Positions 859 through 23,863 of a stretch of DNA of 23,887 bases are shown one piece after another; positions within the stretch are counted from its first letter, which is position 1, and the number at the start of each line of letters is the position of its first letter. The notes under the pieces were generated by a model. That model was not told the DNA's origin and did no database searches. It saw nothing but the letters and a program-made list of their open reading frames with translations. The position numbers and the translations under genes are program-made. The stretch is from a virus: the IMG/VR virus record IMGVR_UViG_3300049893_001323, positions 1 through 23,887 of that record. One strand, given 5' to 3'.

Positions 859-1013
859 CGTCCCCCCTGTACTATCACAATTTCAGTTTCCACCCCGCAT
901 TGCATCAAGGCGTGGGGCTGCATATCCTCTGCAAGTCGCGGGCCAGCAAAACATTTCGCTTTTACCGCCCAGGGAGTACACCCAGCAAGTAGAAGAACAA
1001 AAATATATTTCAT
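855..1013 (-). CDS. 52-residue predicted lipoprotein
   Basis: A short gene filling the apparent gap between the polymerase and the PQ-loop gene. Its ATG at 1013 overlaps the polymerase stop (ATGA) and its stop at 855-857 overlaps the PQ-loop start (ATGA), so both junctions match the operon's coupling style. GAGAGG lies about eight bases upstream of the ATG. The product begins MKYIFVLLLAGC, a compact signal peptide with a clean lipobox Leu-Ala-Gly-Cys and lipidation predicted at Cys12. The mature part has about 40 residues with Cys21 and Cys39, which could form a disulfide outside the cytoplasm. No family is recognised. Short phage lipoproteins include outer-membrane spanins and superinfection-exclusion proteins. 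The position next to a membrane protein suggests the two act together, but this is inference. Confidence 0.68.
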   Translation of the reverse strand: MKYIFVLLLAGCTPWAVKAKCFAGPRLAEDMQPHALMQCGVETEIVIVQGGR

Positions 1014-2830
1014 TTCTTGTACCTCTCATCCCGCCAGGTCTCAACCTTGATAGGTAGACCTTCGGCCCAAGGGGGCACCACTTCCATCAATTCTTTGAAA
1101 TGGCCTTCTTCACCCCCGCCTTCGCAGACGACTTCATCATGAACCGTCATTATAACCGGAAACCCTGCGGACTCCAAACGAAATAGGGCGTCACGGAGCA
1201 CATCCCGGGCTACGGCCTGCGTGATATTCTCCACCAGCTTCCCGCCATAGGTGCGGATGTCGTCCCGGTATGTGATGTCCGGGTCCAACCTGGGGTTGTA
1301 ATAGGCCAAACTTCTTCCGGAAGGTAGCTTACAGAATAAGTACTTATCCTGAAGATAGAACGTCACCCCTCGGCACCGCGTCGTTTCCCCGAACGCGATG
1401 GTTTGGGTGGCGCAGTCTTGGACCTGATACCAGAACGTGCGCACGGCGTGGTATTTTGACCGGTAAGTCTGCACCGCGTAATCCGCGAATTGTCGATCGA
1501 TTTGGATACCGTACGTCTCACATGTGGCCTGGAACTTCTCGCTGCCCATGCCGAACCCGCAGGCCAGGACGATGACCTTGCCTAGCTGGCGCTGCTCTTT
1601 CGTGATTTGCGAATCGGGAATATTGAATACCCGGGCAGCCATCTCGATATAGGGGTCACCTCCGCGTACGTAGGTATTCAGGTTCTCGTCACCTGCGAGC
1701 CAGCACACGACCCGCGCCTCAATGGCGTTGAAGTCTCCAGCTAGCAAGTAACTCCCGGGAGTGGCACGGAGCATACCCCGAACCCCGGCAGCCAGGGTGG
1801 TAAACAGGTCCGGGTGCTTGGCCTTAAATGCACGATAATCGCATTTTTCGATATTTTCGAACAAATCACCGTCTACTTTTCCCTTGATTAGGTTCTGCGG
1901 TTGGATCCCCCGGCCCGACCAGCGGCCTGTATGGGCGCCGTGGTATAGCAGGGTACCTCGGATGCGGTTGTCCGGGCAAGCCATGTTAACCATAGCCTGG
2001 TACTTGCTGATAGACGAACGACTCAAGGCGCGTCTGATTTCGAGCAGCCGCTTTTGGTAAGGATTTAGCTTATCTGACTTGAGCCACTCGTCGATCGTGT
2101 CCGCTTGCATGTCCGGAATCGGTACCTCTTTCAGGAATCGGGCGACCTGCCCCGGAGATGTGATGCGCCCCTCGGTGATATTCCCTAGCTCGGCGGTCAG
2201 TTCCTCGTTATACCGCTGCGCCAATACGATAGCTTTCGTACACAATTCTGTGTCACAGTAAATCCCCCGCTCGTTAATCTTGGCAGTGAGTTCCCACGTT
2301 TTCTGCTCCGCATCAATCAGGCAGCGAAGGGGTAGGGCCATCTCTGCGGCCACGTCCTGCTTGCAATAGTCGTAGAGTTTCTGTAAATCTTCCGGCTTCT
2401 CATGCCAGTCTGACAAATCGTTCTTGGTATGTCTACGCGGCTTGGACATACGCAGCATTAATCGACTATCCCCCTTTTGAACGTCGAGTTCCAGCATCTT
2501 ACCTAGCTCGCTTAGTTTCCGGGGCAGCCCAAGCGCCGCGGCCTTGGCCGCCGAGCAGCGCAGTTGCTCCAGATTGAGCCGGGGCCACCCGAAGCGAACG
2601 GCGCAGATGTTATTCCATATGACGTATTCGAACTCAGCGTTATGCGCTTCGATTAGCCCGCCATTCCTGACGTGCGACAATAGGTCAACGGGGTCATTGT
2701 CGCCAGGCTTCCAGAAACCATCGGTATATGCCAAGCACAGCACCGAGGTCGTCTCGTCGATCGAATACCGATACGCGCCGCACGCTTTGAGGTCACAAGC
2801 GCTCCGTGTTTCAAAGTCGATGGTGATCAC
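1010..2830 (-). CDS. Family A DNA polymerase with 3'-5' exonuclease
   Basis: The 606-residue replicative polymerase has an N-terminal DEDD exonuclease (DFETRS with D5 and E7; AHNAEFE at 62-68; YCKQDV with D159) and a complete family A polymerase domain. Motif A is AGDFNAIEAR with catalytic D366. Motif B (O-helix) starts RQLGK at 414-418 and continues to GFGMG at 425-429. Motif C is HDE at 564-566. There is no 5' nuclease domain. In E. coli Pol I numbering, position 762 is Leu (L422 here) and the usual Tyr766 is Phe (F426). Published surveys of viral family A polymerases connect residue 762 with replication style; Leu is more often found in temperate or slower phages. The start is GTG at 2830, overlapping the previous stop (GTGA), with GGGAGG four bases upstream inside the preceding gene. 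Confidence 0.95.
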   Translation of the reverse strand: MITIDFETRSACDLKACGAYRYSIDETTSVLCLAYTDGFWKPGDNDPVDLLSHVRNGGLIEAHNAEFEYVIWNNICAVRFGWPRLNLEQLRCSAAKAAALGLPRKLSELGKMLELDVQKGDSRLMLRMSKPRRHTKNDLSDWHEKPEDLQKLYDYCKQDVAAEMALPLRCLIDAEQKTWELTAKINERGIYCDTELCTKAIVLAQRYNEELTAELGNITEGRITSPGQVARFLKEVPIPDMQADTIDEWLKSDKLNPYQKRLLEIRRALSRSSISKYQAMVNMACPDNRIRGTLLYHGAHTGRWSGRGIQPQNLIKGKVDGDLFENIEKCDYRAFKAKHPDLFTTLAAGVRGMLRATPGSYLLAGDFNAIEARVVCWLAGDENLNTYVRGGDPYIEMAARVFNIPDSQITKEQRQLGKVIVLACGFGMGSEKFQATCETYGIQIDRQFADYAVQTYRSKYHAVRTFWYQVQDCATQTIAFGETTRCRGVTFYLQDKYLFCKLPSGRSLAYYNPRLDPDITYRDDIRTYGGKLVENITQAVARDVLRDALFRLESAGFPVIMTVHDEVVCEGGGEEGHFKELMEVVPPWAEGLPIKVETWRDERYKK

Positions 2831-3033
2831 TTATCCTCCCACGGTAATGGATTTGTGCGCCCAAGCTCGTTTCTAAATCCACACGCTAGTGTTCTAGCCT
2901 CTGACAGTAATTCCCGGGTAAACCTCAGCTCCCGCTGTGCATATTCCAGCCCATCTTGCAATCGCCTGCATCTATCGCGAAGATACTCGATCAATTCGCG
3001 GTCGCTGATCGTCATGTTGGTTCCGTTATCCAT
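2827..3033 (-). CDS. Small helical protein with C-terminal Leu-Pro-Trp-Glu (PWE family, member 4)
   Basis: A 68-residue, largely helical, charged protein with a likely coiled coil at about 10-50 (SDRELIEYLRDR through RELLSEARTLA) and a short tail ending NPLPWEDK. It is the most diverged of four tandem proteins sharing a helix around EAR.LA, a polar linker and a terminal PWE. The start ATG at 3033 overlaps the TAA of the upstream gene by one base (TAATG); an alternative is Met7. The codons for Pro-Trp-Glu-Asp contain TGGGAGG, which is the ribosome binding site for the polymerase GTG start. Function is unknown. Its place between helicase and polymerase suggests a small replication accessory protein or a peptide that binds a host protein through its tail. 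Confidence 0.7.
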   Translation of the reverse strand: MDNGTNMTISDRELIEYLRDRCRRLQDGLEYAQRELRFTRELLSEARTLACGFRNELGRTNPLPWEDK

Positions 3034-3293
3034 TATTTCTCACCCTCCCACGGCGCAACGGGGCGCGGTTTGGTGTGCAAAATACCGTGTGGCTTGTCAT
3101 CTCGGCCCCAATTTCCATAGGGCTCAACGCTGTCAGCGTACTCCATCGCCTCTCTGAACAACCGCCGCGCTTCGTCTCTTTGCCTCTCAACAAGTTCAAT
3201 ATATTCACTTATTGCTTTTTTAATTTCTAAAGAAACTCTAACGCCGAATGGTTCAATTCGTTTATTAATGAAATCATTGATTTGCTTATCCAC
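3033..3293 (-). CDS. Small helical protein with C-terminal Pro-Trp-Glu (PWE family, member 3)
   Basis: An 86-residue product from a GTG at 3293. The frame stays open further upstream to an ATG at 3335, but GTG is preferred: it has GGGAGG six bases upstream and sits inside the end of the previous gene like every other start in this cluster. The N-terminal part (residues 1-25, with an IEPFGVRVSLEIKKAI stretch) differs from its neighbours. The middle helix carries RQRDEARRLFREAMEYA, the family signature, and the tail ends PVAPWEGEK. The Pro-Trp-Glu-Gly codons again supply GGGAGGG for the next gene. Function unknown. The shared middle and end show descent from one duplicated gene with a replaced N-terminus. 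Confidence 0.68.
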   Translation of the reverse strand: MDKQINDFINKRIEPFGVRVSLEIKKAISEYIELVERQRDEARRLFREAMEYADSVEPYGNWGRDDKPHGILHTKPRPVAPWEGEK

Positions 3294-3603
3294 TCTTATC
3301 CTCCCATGGCAACACGTAGTCGCTGTCTGGCCCAAGCCCTGAGCAGATAGATTCGGAAATTTTCGCGTTGTCTCTCCACTCCTCCGCCAACCGCCGCGCC
3401 TCCTCCCTTAACCTACGCTCTTCGTCAAGCTCTTTGACGGCCCTGTTCAGCTCTATTTGAAGATATATAACCGCATCAATTTCTTCATATACGTTCTTCA
3501 CCTCTCCACCTCCCACGGCAGCGTATTCCAGTCTCCAGGGTTAACTGCCCCGGCTAGAACGCTAGTATTCCGCCACTTCTCCGCCAACCGCCGCGCTTCT
3601 TCC
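3151..3603. repeat. Diverged direct repeats under the PWE-family genes
   Basis: Three segments on the plus strand are similar at the DNA level: 3576-3603, 3379-3406 and 3151-3176. The shared core is CCAACCGCCGCGC or AACCGCCGCGCTTCGTC, which reads as the EARRLA helix on the minus strand. The first two are close to identical across 28 bases and are 197 bp apart, about the length of one gene. This fits tandem duplication of a whole small gene. The repeats could still serve for recombination between copies. Confidence 0.7.
3286..3501 (-). CDS. Small helical protein with C-terminal Leu-Pro-Trp-Glu (PWE family, member 2)
   Basis: A 71-residue product starting at GTG 3501, whose last two bases overlap the TGA of the previous gene (GTGA); GGAGGTGGAG lies just upstream. 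An upstream ATG at 3516 is in frame but lies before the ribosome binding site. Almost the whole protein is one predicted coiled coil (about 5-50), including REEARRLAEEWRDNA, which is nearly identical to member 1. A polar linker follows, then DYVLPWEDKSG. The tail codons carry GGGAGG for the next GTG. The DNA under the shared helix is close to that of member 1 (3379-3406 against 3576-3603), so this pair split most recently. Function unknown. Confidence 0.72.
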   Translation of the reverse strand: MKNVYEEIDAVIYLQIELNRAVKELDEERRLREEARRLAEEWRDNAKISESICSGLGPDSDYVLPWEDKSG

Positions 3604-3779
3604 AACTCCTTGCGCCGCCTAAGAAGCTCATCATTCCCATCGCACAGCGCCTTGCTAAGCGCCTCTATCTCTACGGTCGCCTCCGCCAACTCGGCGCGGA
3701 GTTCGTCGCGCTCTTTCTCGGTAGCATTTAGCTTTACCTTCATATCCCACAACAGGGCCTGTTCTCGTTCATTTAGCAT
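3498..3779 (-). CDS. Small coiled-coil protein with C-terminal Leu-Pro-Trp-Glu (PWE family, member 1)
   Basis: A 93-residue protein, first and longest of the four tandem PWE proteins. Residues 5-70 form a strongly predicted coiled coil rich in Glu, Arg and Leu, ending in EEARRLAEKWRNTS. A flexible part follows, then WNTLPWEVER. The start ATG at 3779 has GGAGG six bases upstream, inside the last codons of the helicase gene, and overlaps that gene by 11 bp. Its own Pro-Trp-Glu-Val codons contain TGGGAGGTGGAG, used by the next GTG start. No enzyme motif is present. A self-associating helical protein that presents a Trp-containing tail peptide is the simplest reading. Confidence 0.74.
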   Translation of the reverse strand: MLNEREQALLWDMKVKLNATEKERDELRAELAEATVEIEALSKALCDGNDELLRRRKELEEARRLAEKWRNTSVLAGAVNPGDWNTLPWEVER

Positions 3780-5136
3780 ATCGGCCCTCCATCACTCTGC
3801 GGGCCCACCAATAGGGGTTCTTGTAGCCCCTGTCGGTGCCTAGCTGCACTAATTGTTCGAGAGTATTGCATTGTCCTTGTTCCCTTCGTTTGATTGCTCG
3901 TTGCTGTTCGATGTCGATTTCTGTGAGTTCTCCATCTCGTTGAGGTATGTTTCTAGACTCAACTGGGAACTCTGCCCCGCAGCATCCGCAGGTTGGAGAT
4001 CCACTTGGGTTGGCTGCGAAGCAAGACATACAGACTCGGACGGCAGAGTCGCTTGCAGAACGCTTTCCTCTGTTGGGGTTGCCGTCGAGGCTCCATTGAT
4101 ATTCATCGTCAGGTAATCCATGCCGTGAGCAATTTCCGACGTGATCGAGGATAATAGCTTCGCGCTTCCCTTCGACTGGCCGAAGAGCGCGGCCAATCTG
4201 CTGACGATAGAGGGATCTAGATTGTGTTGGACGCAATAAGATCGCACACTCGATTCCAGGGCAGTCAAATCCCTCCCCAAACAGGTCGCAGTTGCATATA
4301 ACCTGAATGTCTCCGCTACTAAATCTTTTAATGGCTTCGTCTCTTTCCGCATCTGGCGTACCTCCATCTATATGTTGGGCGTTTACCCCAACGGTTTGAA
4401 ATTGCTGCATAATATGCTTTGAATGCTCGATGCTGACCGCGAACACAATCGCGCGCTTACCCGCACATAACTTGGAATAATGCGCAACAGCGTTGCCGGT
4501 AATCCCCGGGCGGTCAACAGCTTGTGATAATTCCCCGCGTATCCAATCGCCCGCACGACTGTGAACCCCTTTCAGGTCTACGGTGGAGGGTGCAAATAAA
4601 CGATAGCGCGACAGCCACCCCGCGTCAATCAATTCTTTCACTTGAGGACCCACAACCATTTTCTTGAAGAACTCTCCCAGCCCGCGACCATCTAAGCGCT
4701 CAGGTGTGGCAGACAGCCCGACGTGGTAGGCATTCGGCAGGCTGTGAAATACCCGGCCCCAGGATTCCGATGCAATGTGATGGCACTCATCATATATCAC
4801 GAAATTCCTATCCTGAATGCGATCAAGATGCCGCGTCACGGTCTGAATAGAGCCAACCATGATGCGATCGTCCGTGCCCCCTGAAACGCTAGCACTGAGG
4901 ATTTTGGGGTCCACACCGAATTCTCGCAGCGTGCGTACCGTCTGATTAATCAGTTCGCGTCTGTGAACTAGGAATATAGACTTATACCCGCGTTCAGCAG
5001 AGCGCTGTAGCATATAGGATACAAGAACAGTCTTACCACTCCCAGTGGGTGAGGTGATAAGAATGCTCTTATGCCCTAGTGACATAAGATGTCGGGCATC
5101 GCCGACTATTTTGTGTTGGTAGTCTCTGAGTTGCAT
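3769..5136 (-). CDS. SF2 DEAD/DEAH-box DNA helicase
   Basis: A 455-residue superfamily 2 helicase of the type found in phage replication modules and related to UvsW and restriction-type ATPases. Motifs in order: LRDYQ near the N-terminus, motif I SPTGSGKT at 29-36 (K35), motif II DECHH at 116-120, motif III SATP at 142-145, motif IV/V region around DLFGEGFDCP at 284-293, and motif VI QQIGRALRP at 312-320. After the helicase core a four-cysteine zinc ribbon is visible (C369, C372, C383, C386), then a helical tail. The ATG at 5136 lies 31 bp inside the previous gene and has no clear ribosome binding site, but MQLRDYQ is the normal beginning of this family. It probably unwinds or remodels branched DNA with the polymerase and nuclease encoded downstream. 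Confidence 0.92.
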   Translation of the reverse strand: MQLRDYQHKIVGDARHLMSLGHKSILITSPTGSGKTVLVSYMLQRSAERGYKSIFLVHRRELINQTVRTLREFGVDPKILSASVSGGTDDRIMVGSIQTVTRHLDRIQDRNFVIYDECHHIASESWGRVFHSLPNAYHVGLSATPERLDGRGLGEFFKKMVVGPQVKELIDAGWLSRYRLFAPSTVDLKGVHSRAGDWIRGELSQAVDRPGITGNAVAHYSKLCAGKRAIVFAVSIEHSKHIMQQFQTVGVNAQHIDGGTPDAERDEAIKRFSSGDIQVICNCDLFGEGFDCPGIECAILLRPTQSRSLYRQQIGRALRPVEGKREAIILDHVGNCSRHGLPDDEYQWSLDGNPNRGKRSASDSAVRVCMSCFAANPSGSPTCGCCGAEFPVESRNIPQRDGELTEIDIEQQRAIKRREQGQCNTLEQLVQLGTDRGYKNPYWWARRVMEGRYAK

Positions 5137-8499: not shown

Positions 8500-8620
8500 T
8501 TGTCATCATCTCCGATGTATATGGCTTATGCAATGCGTGTGCCATGAAAAAGGCTAATGATTTCGCAAGGCACATGCTACGTGGTGCGAATAGCATTACG
8601 CAGTAAAAACAGAAAACCTA

Positions 8621-8649
8621 ATGATATTCCTTATCTGGAGATGTGTAAA
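8621..8649 (-). promoter_or_regulatory. Leftward sigma70-type promoter
   Basis: On the minus strand TTTACA (8649-8644) and TATCAT (8626-8621) are separated by exactly 17 bp; each differs from consensus at one position. Transcription would begin near 8614 and run into the 49-residue gene at 8499. The GTTACC repeats begin 30 bp upstream of the -35 box, where an activator or origin protein could act. Confidence 0.6.
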
Positions 8650-8679
8650 AGATTGCGCGGGTGTGTAAGAGTTTACGCT

Positions 8680-8925
8680 GTTACCAGTGTTACCAAGTGT
8701 TACCGAAAAAGGTCAAAGAAATCAAAGAGGTAACAAGGTAACACAAGGTAACATAAAGGTATAGGAGTAGTAAAGTAGAGAGAGAATACAGGAGATAGTA
8801 AATATGTAATATACACTACACTAGGGAAAAATACACACCACTACTCTACCTAAAGGTTAAGAAATCATGTGCTACCTAGTGTTACCCGTTACCCCTGCGA
8901 AATCATTAGGCATTCCGATGTTACC
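8680..8925. repeat. Nine GTTACC/GGTAAC iteron-like hexamers
   Basis: GTTACC occurs at 8680, 8689 and 8699; its complement GGTAAC at 8729, 8737 and 8747; and GTTACC again at 8881, 8888 and 8920. Spacing within the first two groups is 8-10 bp, close to one helical turn. The first three and next three face each other across a 24-bp A-rich stretch, forming a large imperfect inverted repeat. Flanking bases are partly shared (AGTGTTACC, ACAAGGTAAC). Phased, opposed repeats suggest cooperative binding by a phage protein. Confidence 0.8.
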
Positions 8926-9184
8926 CGCGAAATCATTGGGGAATTCGGCAGGACGCATTTAAACGCGTTATAAGACGTCGCGCGGCGGGTAATGCCTAGG
9001 TATCACTCCCCTGCCTATCGCCTCACCTTGGCCCGTATACGCAGCCGTTTTTTAGTACATAGTTGGCATGCTAATTGCTACGCGTACTTAGCTCAGCGCT
9101 TGGCATGCAGCTTGCTAGTAGTAGCAAGAATCGTGCCATGGCTCAAAGTAGGTGTGTGTATGGAGACCCCCTACCCCGGGGTTC

Positions 9185-9218
9185 GAGGTGGGAGCGCGCG
9201 GGGGGACCCACCCACCTC
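9185..9218. terminator. GC-rich hairpin followed by a T tract (possible terminator)
   Basis: GAGGTGGG (9185-9192) can pair with CCCACCTC (9211-9218) around an 18-base loop. A run of seven T begins 12 bases later (9231), followed by A8 and T6. The gap between stem and T run is too long for a standard intrinsic terminator, so this is weak. It may instead insulate the rightward promoter from upstream transcription, or the A/T tract may act as an UP element. Confidence 0.25.
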
Positions 9219-9263
9219 CAGACTTGTATATTTTTTTCCAAAAAAAATTTTTTATGGATTTTC

Positions 9264-9292
9264 TTGACACAAGTCCTGCCTAATGTTAGTCT
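9264..9292 (+). promoter_or_regulatory. Rightward sigma70-type promoter
   Basis: TTGACA (perfect -35) at 9264-9269, a 17-bp spacer and TAGTCT at 9287-9292, which keeps the three most conserved -10 bases. Transcription would begin near 9299, about 27 bases before the first rightward ATG. The A/T tract ending at 9253 could serve as an UP element. It drives the whole packed right block unless later promoters exist. Confidence 0.62.
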
Positions 9293-9314
9293 GAATCTTG
9301 TCAACATTTAGGCA
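9277..9314. promoter_or_regulatory. Inverted-repeat operator overlapping the rightward promoter
   Basis: TGCCTAATGTT (9277-9287) faces AACATTTAGGCA (9303-9314), an 11-base inverted repeat with one extra T. A second pair, TTGACA (9264-9269) and TGTCAA (9299-9304), partly overlaps it. The arms cover the spacer, the -10 box and the start site, and the right arm abuts the AAGGAGG ribosome binding site. A bound repressor would block this promoter. The small Phd-like protein encoded directly downstream is the natural candidate, which is inference. Confidence 0.58.
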
Positions 9315-12296: not shown

Positions 12297-12520
12297 AAGG
12301 TACTTGTCAAAAGTGTGGTACAATGAACGTAGACATTACAGATGCAAACGTTTGCATTTGGTGTGAGGATACGGTAGAGTTAAAGCTCGACGGGGATGAC
12401 GGCTTCAAGATCATTCGTGAAAAGCAACTCGCCAACCGATTCTGCACCCAATGCGGTCGCGGAAAAAAGTGGATTGATATGATTACGTCTCGTTTCTGGG
12501 GGTGTCCGAAATGCGGGTAA
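12293..12520 (+). CDS. Double zinc-ribbon protein (75 residues)
   Basis: A small protein with four CxxC knuckles: CQKCG (5-9), CIWC (about 22-25), CTQCG and CPKCG in the second half. These can form two zinc ribbons. The ATG at 12293 overlaps the TGA of the preceding gene (ATGA) with GAGGG upstream; an earlier in-frame ATG at 12275 is less likely. Zinc ribbons of this size commonly bind nucleic acid or a polymerase, so a regulatory role is possible. No specific family is recognised. Confidence 0.72.
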   Translation: MKGTCQKCGTMNVDITDANVCIWCEDTVELKLDGDDGFKIIREKQLANRFCTQCGRGKKWIDMITSRFWGCPKCG

Positions 12521-21800: not shown

Positions 21801-23863
21801 CGGCAGTCGGCGTTGATTTCCACTCCTTCATCGACGGGGATACTATCCTACTTACTGGTAGTGCCCTTGGGAACAACGGAACATTTGACGTAGTAAGTTT
21901 CAACCCCGCTAATCCAAATGAAATTGTTATCACAAACCCAACCGGAGTAGCCGAAGGGGCGGTCCTTAACTGGTTCCGAAGCACTCAGTACGACACATTA
22001 AGTAATATCATTCGCCCGATTCCTTACGGGACGCACGCACATTTCTTGTGGGAATGGGATGATGCGTTCAACAAATGGATTCTTAAGTCCTATCAACCAA
22101 GCCAAGGCTCTGCCCAGGATTTCAAAGCCTCCGAATCAGATGGCACCGTAGCCGCAGCGACCTATACCCCGGATTACGGGCAAGGGACTATGTTCGATGT
22201 TACGTTTAGCTCTAGCGGCACCGTGACTGTTGCTAACTTGGATAATTTCGACGCCGCCGATAATTCTCTGAATGGTACTGAAGTGTTCTTCCGGATTACG
22301 GCTAGTCCTGGAGCGGGATTAACTACTACCATTGCCTGGGACACAGAATTTAACGTAGGCAATTTGAAAGATAATACGATTGCCAACGGAACATATCGAA
22401 TCTATCGATTTCTATTCGACGCAGGGCTGAATCGGTTTAGCTTAATTAGTCTTTATGACTCGACATCCAGTAAGAATATCTATATGGTTCGGTCTACGAA
22501 TTTAGCGTTCACCGCGGCCACACTTACTCCGGATATCGCCACAGCGACGTGGTATGACATCGACGTAACCTCTGGGGCGGCTGTAACTATCGCTGCACCT
22601 ACCTTCGTAGATGATATCAGCGGGACCGAACTGGTTATCCGGTTGAGGAACAAAACGGGAGCACTGATTACATTCACCTGGAACGGAGTGTATCGCTTCG
22701 CTGGCACTGGACACACAACGTTAACCGCACTCAACGATTATATGTTGGCGAAGTTCTATTATGATAGCTCGTTCAATGGTTGGTTCCCGGATGGTTTCTA
22801 CAAGTCTACCGGAAGCGGTACGGTTGCGCTAACCGAACTTGATACATCTAGTCTGTCAGCCTCCCAGGCGGTATTCACTGATGGAAGCAAGGCCCTCGTA
22901 AGCAACGCGATTACCGGAACTGGTAACGTGGTTATGTCCGCCTCGCCGACACTGACGGGTACCGCGTCGTTAGCGAATCTTACGGTTTCTACGAATACAA
23001 CCTTATCGAACTTAACCGCTTCCCGGGCAGTCTTTACCGATGGGAGCAAGATTCTGACGAGCAACGCGATTACTGGAACTGGTAACGTGGTTATGTCGGC
23101 GTCTCCTACGCTGACAGGAACCATTAGCGCCGCAGATATCAGCGCAAGCGGAACTATTACAGGTACTACAGCAGTATCCGCCCCCGCGATTATACGCGGA
23201 GGGTTTACCACGATGACCGCTCTTGCTGGCGGGGGACTTCCAACGCTCGCAGCTAATTGTATATCAACTCCGTGGACGTATGTCGGAACTTGTGCAACTA
23301 ACGGGGATTCAATTCGACTTCCCACAACGCCTACCGCAGGAGATATGTATTTTGTTATTAACGGCGGGGCGAAGGATTGTGCTATTTGGCCTCACACAGG
23401 AGATACCATAGGCAATCTTGCGGTGAATACTCCTATGCAACTGCACCCAGATTGTCGTATAGGGTTTGTCGCTGAATCCGCGTCTCAGTGGAGATTCTTC
23501 TCGACTTCTATGCGATATATCTCTCTAGGCGATCTCTCGGCTAACCATTTCGCGTTAGGTGATATTACTGCGGATGGAACGTACCGGGATTTATCTTTGA
23601 CTTCGATTATCCCCCCGTCAGCGTATGGCAAACTCATTCATTTCAAGGTTCGCTTAGATACCGCCTCTTCTGCGGAATGCGTCCTCCGCACAAATGGATA
23701 CTCTAACACCGTTAATATCGGCGGTACTCGAAGTGAAACAGTAAATAATTTAGATGACACATTTGTTGAATGTGATTCTAATGGTGTGATTGAATATTCA
23801 GTAGGCGCAGCAGCTAGTTCGTTTGTATTAACCGTTCGAGGCTATTGGGTCTGGAGCATGTAA
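18860..23863 (+). CDS. Large modular tail fibre / tailspike (1667 residues)
   Basis: GGAG lies six bases before the ATG, encoded by the end of the preceding gene. Residues 1-135 form a beta-rich, likely virion-binding part. Residues 145-420 look like a right-handed beta-helix of the pectate-lyase type (DTFQIQQAMDNLGDEGG, then many short strand-turn coils), as in tailspikes that bind or cut surface polysaccharides; no catalytic set could be picked. Small modules around an N-G-T-F core occur at about 445-503, 565-600, 606-676 and 975-1039. Modules beginning Y/LTPD occur at about 778-871, 1102-1200 and 1222-1315, and a divided fourth at about 888-1078. Two near-identical 53-residue repeats lie at 1337-1421, followed by a C-terminal beta domain (about 1560-1667), probably for trimerisation. 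Confidence 0.85.
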   Translation: MATFSAAGQKSSVLLVGLRDTINIVLDDGAGTFSGTIELQGSTNGFATYDVIRSYTGNITDEYQYQESEYLFLRLVCTAYSGDSIDYTFEVDKTVADKLRFHEHYIIDKKGHTSAEFTHAGIDVKGELTVNGAPVPTGNGFLFLDPVGDATTDTFQIQQAMDNLGDEGGTIFLGPGDWYINSTLTKEWTTTWTPLIKFQGYGMYSTRLINQLATDDYIFDFTTSTDYVYGTGLTFHDMSFQGEGYTAANHRGGVLIRGVWHVNFQRCNFSNLSGDAITINNESVASSSAGDRQTSLYVDIANCTFDDIGGWAIDAGASIAAINVKQCYSSRAGGFFRGKPLLASYIENCGIAYCQRNTAIRIDNRGRAAARLMHIRNTGFEGNLMGDIYLSGNLHEVNNVSFVDAKVTGTDDRDESPQGVYGIRFGDDYDASGSDGVLGAVSDKVQTFTAASANFPETVVGQCIYVYEEGDFELSYPIVGWNSATSIDIYAPEGAAHAGPLEWETGFPCAMAKFERANVVIVGMGESATIAAARGSFLPSVTAPDGSNNQYLQPGSLGGRFRSTIVGSDVTILDSATPGNNGTFAITAVEPLFGYGTAGGTISAPVANEQTITITSLSGTIPANCVGKYIHVTDTTNPANTGLFVITTKVSANSVKYLNPAGGAETNASFAAWIGPWVEYNNAAGAADISTDFSWRTEGPGGTRFWKWDTFYIGDYQYNYYNKIGPHYGQLFADGYNDNVKHLRLNTGPLPELDYEFLGRAVTPYNAVYDAGNVATGSYTPDLSLGAHHVVDVTLEGDFTINLPTQTPYTSGPELSFFIRNMVGADTTVNLLWDASYNMPPHIQTNLSNSMGVLARFYWEDSISDWVCTSYTCPQFETHNRKNQYADLSITDDFYHPQWVKGAYHRLDFNTYGEVLIGSSTSFFTYDKPDYHGAQMWMRIACTDSGGGGGRSITPVFYQSGTAASLSANSGAPNFTQTLTAAVGVDFHSFIDGDTILLTGSALGNNGTFDVVSFNPANPNEIVITNPTGVAEGAVLNWFRSTQYDTLSNIIRPIPYGTHAHFLWEWDDAFNKWILKSYQPSQGSAQDFKASESDGTVAAATYTPDYGQGTMFDVTFSSSGTVTVANLDNFDAADNSLNGTEVFFRITASPGAGLTTTIAWDTEFNVGNLKDNTIANGTYRIYRFLFDAGLNRFSLISLYDSTSSKNIYMVRSTNLAFTAATLTPDIATATWYDIDVTSGAAVTIAAPTFVDDISGTELVIRLRNKTGALITFTWNGVYRFAGTGHTTLTALNDYMLAKFYYDSSFNGWFPDGFYKSTGSGTVALTELDTSSLSASQAVFTDGSKALVSNAITGTGNVVMSASPTLTGTASLANLTVSTNTTLSNLTASRAVFTDGSKILTSNAITGTGNVVMSASPTLTGTISAADISASGTITGTTAVSAPAIIRGGFTTMTALAGGGLPTLAANCISTPWTYVGTCATNGDSIRLPTTPTAGDMYFVINGGAKDCAIWPHTGDTIGNLAVNTPMQLHPDCRIGFVAESASQWRFFSTSMRYISLGDLSANHFALGDITADGTYRDLSLTSIIPPSAYGKLIHFKVRLDTASSAECVLRTNGYSNTVNIGGTRSETVNNLDDTFVECDSNGVIEYSVGAAASSFVLTVRGYWVWSM
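22869..23120 (+). repeat. Two direct repeats of 159 bp period inside the fibre gene
   Basis: Bases from 22869 and from 23029 encode the same sequence, beginning AVFTDGSK and including SNAITGTGNVVMSASPT, shifted by 53 residues. The DNA is also close: GCAACGCGATTAC, GGAACTGGTAACGTGG and TTATGTC are shared exactly, with mostly third-position changes elsewhere. In-frame recombination between the copies could shorten or lengthen the fibre by 53 residues. Confidence 0.85.

Follow-up and report, generated by a model that had tools for sequence, protein, structure and literature searches.

The window (the whole stretch of DNA analyzed here) is a 23.9 kb virus record in which the minus strand carries an early/replication block and the plus strand carries packaging and structural genes, including a terminase and a head-tail adaptor. 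On the minus strand, an SF2 helicase gene is followed by four small genes, M4, M3, M2 and M1, and by a family A DNA polymerase gene, each overlapping the next (Table 1). A first-pass annotation, made from the sequence alone, had described four consecutive genes with a shared helix and a terminal [L/A]PWE at positions 3779-2827; we confirmed them on the minus strand and corrected their start codons on the basis of overlap and Shine-Dalgarno sequences. The corrected proteins have 93, 71, 86 and 68 residues (M4 to M1), M3 being shorter than the 76 residues of the earlier frame and M2 shorter than the 100 residues of the longest open reading frame. From helicase to polymerase, the stop/start offsets at the five junctions are -11, -4, -8, -1 and -4 nt and the GGAGG spacers are 6, 7, 6, 10 and 4 nt. 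Every junction thus combines a stop/start overlap with a properly spaced Shine-Dalgarno sequence inside the upstream gene.

Table 1. Coordinates of the coupled genes, tail elements and helix boxes in the window, and of the family members in the related phage (L125 coordinates).
Feature	Coordinates	Strand	Description
SF2 helicase	3769..5136	-	Opens the coupled chain and overlaps M4 by 11 nt; codons of its VMEGRYAK end include GGAGG; PHROG 16, E 2.8e-103
M4	3498..3779	-	Open reading frame, 93 aa from ATG; helix box EARRLAE; tail LPWEVER
M3	3286..3501	-	71 aa from GTG; EARRLAEEWR; tail LPWEDKSG; start overlaps M4 stop as GTGA; GGAGG 7 nt upstream
M2	3033..3293	-	86 aa from GTG; EARRLFREA; tail APWEGEK; 8-nt overlap with M3; GGAGG 6 nt upstream
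M1	2827..3033	-	68 aa from ATG; EARTLACGFR; tail LPWEDK
Family A DNA polymerase	1010..2830	-	Last coupled gene, after M1; PHROG 17, E 2e-100; Pfam DNA_pol_A
CCGTGGGAGG	3509..3518	-	M4 Pro-Trp-Glu codons, Shine-Dalgarno of M3 (GTG 3501, spacer 7)
CCATGGGAGG	3300..3309	-	M3 Pro-Trp-Glu codons, Shine-Dalgarno of M2 (GTG 3293, spacer 6)
CCGTGGGAGG	3044..3053	-	M2 Pro-Trp-Glu codons, Shine-Dalgarno of M1 (ATG 3033, spacer 10)
CCGTGGGAGG	2835..2844	-	M1 Pro-Trp-Glu codons, Shine-Dalgarno of polymerase (GTG 2830, spacer 4)
Helix box in M4, GAAGCGCGGCGGTTGGCGGAG	3579..3599	-	21 nt, letter-identical to L125 B and L125 D
Helix box in M3	3382..3402	-	1 mismatch
Partial helix box in M2	3159..3173	-	First 15 nt identical
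L125 A	7548-7291	-	Family member
L125 B	7294-6995	-	Family member; N-terminus matches almost all 67 positions of the PHROG 4811 profile, E 2.5e-8
L125 C	6998-6759	-	Family member; without intact helix box; PWE codons without GGAGG
L125 D	6762-6541	-	Family member; N-terminus cysteine-rich, zinc-ribbon-like
L125 F	6374-6060	-	Family member; internal LPW plus PWE at true end

All four small proteins carry [L/A]PWE followed by 2-4 residues to the end. The helix reported in the first pass as EARRLA.[E/K]WR holds strictly in M4 (EARRLAEKWR) and M3 (EARRLAEEWR) and is degenerate in M2 (EARRLFREAM) and M1 (EARTLACGFR). Pairwise similarity exceeded that of shuffled sequences both for the full proteins (p 0.0005-0.007) and after removal of the tails (p 0.0005-0.016), in a comparison that leaves coiled-coil composition uncontrolled. 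The AlphaFold model of M4, built from the family alignment, predicts a helix at residues 4-75, a loop and a short helix at 88-92 over the tail (mean pLDDT 92); modeling L125 B by itself gave a poor result (pLDDT 57). In agreement with the earlier statement that no described family has such a build, M1–M4 had no significant family in PHROG or Pfam, where weak coiled-coil matches were found (best PHROG E 8e-4; Pfam E 4e-4, below the curated cut-off), and no significant match in a PDB sequence search (best E 0.017).

We proceeded to search for further members. A gapped pattern run over genome contigs led to a related phage (L111/L125) on a contig of 21 kb that belongs to a metagenome-assembled genome from Delaware Bay. 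This is a phage whose polymerase is 72% identical to that of the window and whose VRR-NUC-type nuclease, helicase, terminase and head-tail adaptor genes also match, as read from the open reading frames. The profile search proposed in the first-pass annotation, performed with M1–M4 on this phage, reported three members (E 2e-5 to 9.5e-5), and reading of the locus brought the total to five, upstream of the polymerase as in the window and all with PWE near the end. Defined by an EARRLAE-type helix and [LAF]PWE at the gene end, the family comprises nine members as judged by profile searches and alignment. The expectation that N-termini differ between members was borne out here as well, with unrelated N-termini among the L125 members. 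Gene E, between L125 D and L125 F, has neither helix nor PWE. Two small paralogues (NDEQLSAW...DWPDL), at L125 6544-6371 and 5962-5768 on the minus strand, are likewise interspersed in the array and contain no helix box or PWE. The L125 helicase lies downstream of the polymerase (1970-3334), whereas in the window it lies upstream of the small genes; module order has therefore been rearranged between the two phages.

Outside these two phages the family was not recovered. Single-protein scans of IMG/VR with M4 and M3 and a tblastn search of M4 against phages gave no match, and the closest relative in a polymerase-based search of IMG/VR reached 39% identity. All three matches to a degenerate EARRLAExWR pattern and all seven to a combined RLAExW and PWE pattern in IMG/VR were unrelated. 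About 1 Mb from 80 loci with related polymerases contained no plausible gene with a PWE end, and the helix box was absent from other phages among 46 genomes of the phylum of the L111 genome. One weak match, L092 (AERDEARRLAEIER...FPWEVGE), was insignificant (E 0.0036 for one among about 90 genomes searched); its PWE lies 26 residues before the end and its Glu is encoded by GAA. M1–M4 belong to a local family of small proteins of the early or replication region.

The codons for the terminal Pro-Trp-Glu of each small gene coincide with the Shine-Dalgarno sequence of the next gene (Table 1). In M1–M4, the codons CCR TGG GAG Gnn contain GGGAGG in 4 out of 4 cases. Across both phages, all nine tails are located at the start of the next gene, with overlaps of 1-8 nt. 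In eight of them the codons for Trp-Glu-X, TGG GAG Gnn, contain GGAGG at a distance of 4-10 nt from the next start. Different amino acids follow PWE (V, D, G and D in M4, M3, M2 and M1, respectively), all encoded by codons beginning with G (9/9 members; expected 0.34 each). Since GGAGG lies in TGG GAG Gnn, it is largely the RNA that dictates the Glu and the G-codon behind it, and Glu-Gnn is largely a translation signal. Similar ends occur elsewhere. A baseline of 88 loci contained 115 gene ends with an internal Shine-Dalgarno site; 73 of these sites were in register xxG GAG, and Trp preceded Glu in 7 of the 73, about one tenth. For example, an unrelated Erwinia phage gene ends in KWEVKK with the same kind of junction, and in another unrelated phage family an LPWEDEK end is found in a member with an overlapping next start and is absent in two relatives without one. 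As Trp-Glu ends recur at Shine-Dalgarno junctions of unrelated genes, Trp-Glu-X-X-Lys/Arg-stop is a form that the ends of coupled genes take repeatedly. In the first-pass annotation, a PWE end confined to genes with another start immediately behind them counted as evidence against selection on the terminal peptide. In form this is the arrangement of all nine members, none of which carries the tail without a downstream overlapping gene.

The preceding residues behave differently from the Glu. Pro-Trp is invariant in the nine members, and Leu directly precedes the terminal PWE in seven. The Leu and Pro codons, drawn from many synonymous ones, agree across phages at about chance level (identity 0.27 vs 0.22 expected), which indicates that the residues and not the DNA letters are kept. 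Moreover, Pro-Trp is present in 9/9 family genes vs none of 9-15 other coupled genes of both phages (Fisher about 1e-5). L125 C ends in TGG GAA GGC GAG GAT ACA TGA, keeping PWE with codons that no longer form GGAGG; its Shine-Dalgarno sequence has likely moved to GAGG, 4 nt before the ATG. In L125 F, the internal LPW has Asn in place of Glu and no gene start nearby, and a second PWE stands at the true end. Decoupling is seen in one member only, L125 C, and the internal LPW of L125 F may be a coincidence; although single cases, both point to a constraint on LPW at the protein level. These codon patterns support protein-level selection on Leu-Pro-Trp, which is not fully separable from recent shared inheritance because the family is found in two phages only. 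The earlier suggestion of selection for the terminal peptide is thus upheld for Leu-Pro-Trp, given the invariant Pro-Trp, the synonymous turnover and L125 C, but not for the Glu, the next G and the final Lys/Arg-stop, which are Shine-Dalgarno sequence and overlapping start.

Considering the observed overlaps, Shine-Dalgarno positions, family relation and dual pattern of constraint, we favor, with a probability of roughly 60%, a tail in which a protein motif is superimposed on the signal for reinitiation in a coupled gene chain. The last codons of the upstream gene, typically TGG GAG Gnn nnn (A/G)AR TGA, carry the Shine-Dalgarno sequence GGGAGG, and the stop codon region supplies the next start as RTGA. 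A ribosome finishing one gene would then reinitiate on the next, so that the gene products would be made in linked amounts. Leu-Pro-Trp would be retained because of its use in the protein, where it most likely acts as a short contact motif common to all members that binds other members or one common partner. Each protein is built of a variable N-terminal part, the short conserved helix EARRLAE, a variable hydrophilic linker and the LPWE tail.

Several known systems resemble parts of this arrangement. By analogy, the nearest described counterpart of the dual-use tail is the Start Associated Sequences (SAS) of Cluster K mycobacteriophages, 13-bp GGGATAGGAGCCC elements within a few nt of starts (PMC3203893). 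In SAS, too, short DNA containing a Shine-Dalgarno sequence recurs ahead of the starts of small genes that are unrelated to each other and lie in the non-structural genome half, and its conservation exceeds Shine-Dalgarno needs (PMC3203893). However, SAS are not described as an in-frame protein tail (PMC3203893), whereas the element in the window is coding, with a conserved peptide and a second in-frame helix box. The junction words, TGGGAGGTGGAGAARTGA and variants, do not follow the GGGATAGGAGCCC consensus, and we consider SAS an analogue only. Termination-reinitiation at ATGA overlaps, described in bacteria and archaea (PMC6728339), is similar in that every junction of the chain has a 1-11-nt stop/start overlap and a Shine-Dalgarno sequence in the upstream gene; ordinary overlaps impose no common terminal peptide on successive proteins. 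Finally, PMC3029335 mentions a proposal on phage mosaicism in which short conserved boundary sequences likewise lie at gene borders between unrelated modules, but the family of the window has a second box inside the genes, in frame.

The first-pass annotation had proposed that the tail is a peptide docking onto a replication protein such as the polymerase, the helicase or a host clamp. In phage T7, gp2.5 (single-strand-binding) and gp4 (helicase) have conserved acidic Phe C-terminal docking tails, and the likeness lies in one terminal peptide on several different bodies beside a family A polymerase; LPWE, however, is not an acidic-Phe end, and its codons double as a Shine-Dalgarno sequence. 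Docking of this kind would suit the occurrence of one tail on different N-terminal parts, the position of the genes (adjoining helicase and polymerase in the window and near the polymerase in L111/L125), the selected appearance of Leu-Pro-Trp, and the acidic DDF/YDF tails on proteins upstream of the polymerase in more distant relatives. Yet the Glu and following residues are explained by the Shine-Dalgarno sequence, PHROGs, Pfam and the PDB sequence search returned no homologue covering the helix-tail module, and nothing found points to a specific partner. Docking onto a replication protein is a tentative proposal that we think may well be wrong.

Alternatively, the tail could be a by-product, with tandem duplication of a gene that had a good 3' Shine-Dalgarno sequence copying PWE along without any use for the protein. 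Such an origin would account for all nine tails preceding an overlapping start and for the recurrence of Trp-Glu ends by chance at such junctions. We consider it unlikely, given that the Leu and Pro codons have diverged synonymously with the residues unchanged, that CCN T lacks complementarity to the 16S tail, that in both phages Pro-Trp is absent from coupled genes not belonging to the family, and that L125 C retains PWE without GGAGG within it.

The helix box is conserved at the level of nucleotides. The reported DNA-level conservation between two members holds for M4 and M3, which share 18 identical nt there, and copies with one or two changes occur in M3, L125 F and L125 A. An intact box is missing from M1, M2 and L125 C, and none was found outside family genes in either phage. 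Box copies make up six of the eight longest exact words common to both phage records. Codon agreement across phages is 82% in the box and 100% in its last four codons, where about 30% is expected, and synonymous agreement of this degree far above codon usage was reached in 0/20000 simulations. Synonymous sites of the polymerase are near saturated (identical codons for 9/34 conserved Ala, 6/33 Arg and 11/47 Leu), and the DNA flanking the boxes is unrelated. The boxes have either been homogenized through recombination or are under selection at the nucleotide level; the box core GGCGGTTGGCGG could possibly form a two-layer G-quadruplex in mRNA. That the 21-nt box and the 3' junction serve as recombination anchors or nucleic-acid signals for swapping N-terminal domains and linkers between tandem genes, with protein conservation secondary, fits these shared words, the unrelated flanks and the match of one N-terminal part to PHROG 4811, a profile without a helix-LPWE type tail, but seems quite improbable in that members without an intact box show that it is not required, the box is always in the same frame and the protein therefore matters too, the agreement of the last four codons has a probability of about 0.006 when counted as one independent split (suggestive, not decisive), and the stretch from box to junction showed no conserved RNA hairpin, its folding z-scores being near 0.

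An extension of the dual-use tail, which we regard as doubtful, is a reusable C-terminal cassette in which the 21-nt in-frame helix box is combined with a 3' box that is both LPW contact motif and reinitiation signal, unrelated N-terminal domains being plugged in front. If so, each new gene would automatically be coupled to its neighbor and given the same adaptor. Should LPW and the nucleotide-level helix box be functional, they would offer a modular route by which a phage operon could gain genes that are both coupled and adaptor-tagged. Shared terminal peptides of neighboring phage proteins are often read as docking motifs, and this case shows that much of such a peptide can be set by the ribosome-binding site of the next gene; codon choice, the residue after the motif and members with shifted sites are ways to split the two constraints.

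Some additional features were observed. Two unrelated minus-strand genes of the window, at 5853-5674 and about 8500-8352, end in LRWE and WWEARND, with TGGGAG as the Shine-Dalgarno sequence of the next gene; the former, whose Trp-Glu is also a Shine-Dalgarno sequence, was not convincing as a fifth member. In more distant relatives (loci L008-L011, L014 and L019), several proteins before the polymerase have acidic DDF/YDF-type ends, possibly a shared docking tail. The helicase genes of both phages contain an open out-of-frame reading frame (window 4367-3849 and L125 2556-2086, both minus strand; 172 and 156 codons), 53% identical over 85 residues and longer than in 99.1% (window) and 99.6% (L125) of synonymous-codon shuffles. 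In the window it has an internal ATG at about 4349 with GGAGG 8 nt upstream, and judged on sequence it is possibly a nested gene. The non-coding region between the divergent gene blocks (8560-9300) contains repeated GGTAACAC-like motifs and is a candidate origin or promoter region. Finally, a 23-nt direct repeat is located at 22916 and 23075 within a 1667-aa open reading frame, and a 16-nt perfect palindrome, ATGCAAACGTTTGCAT, is found at position 12342 of the window.
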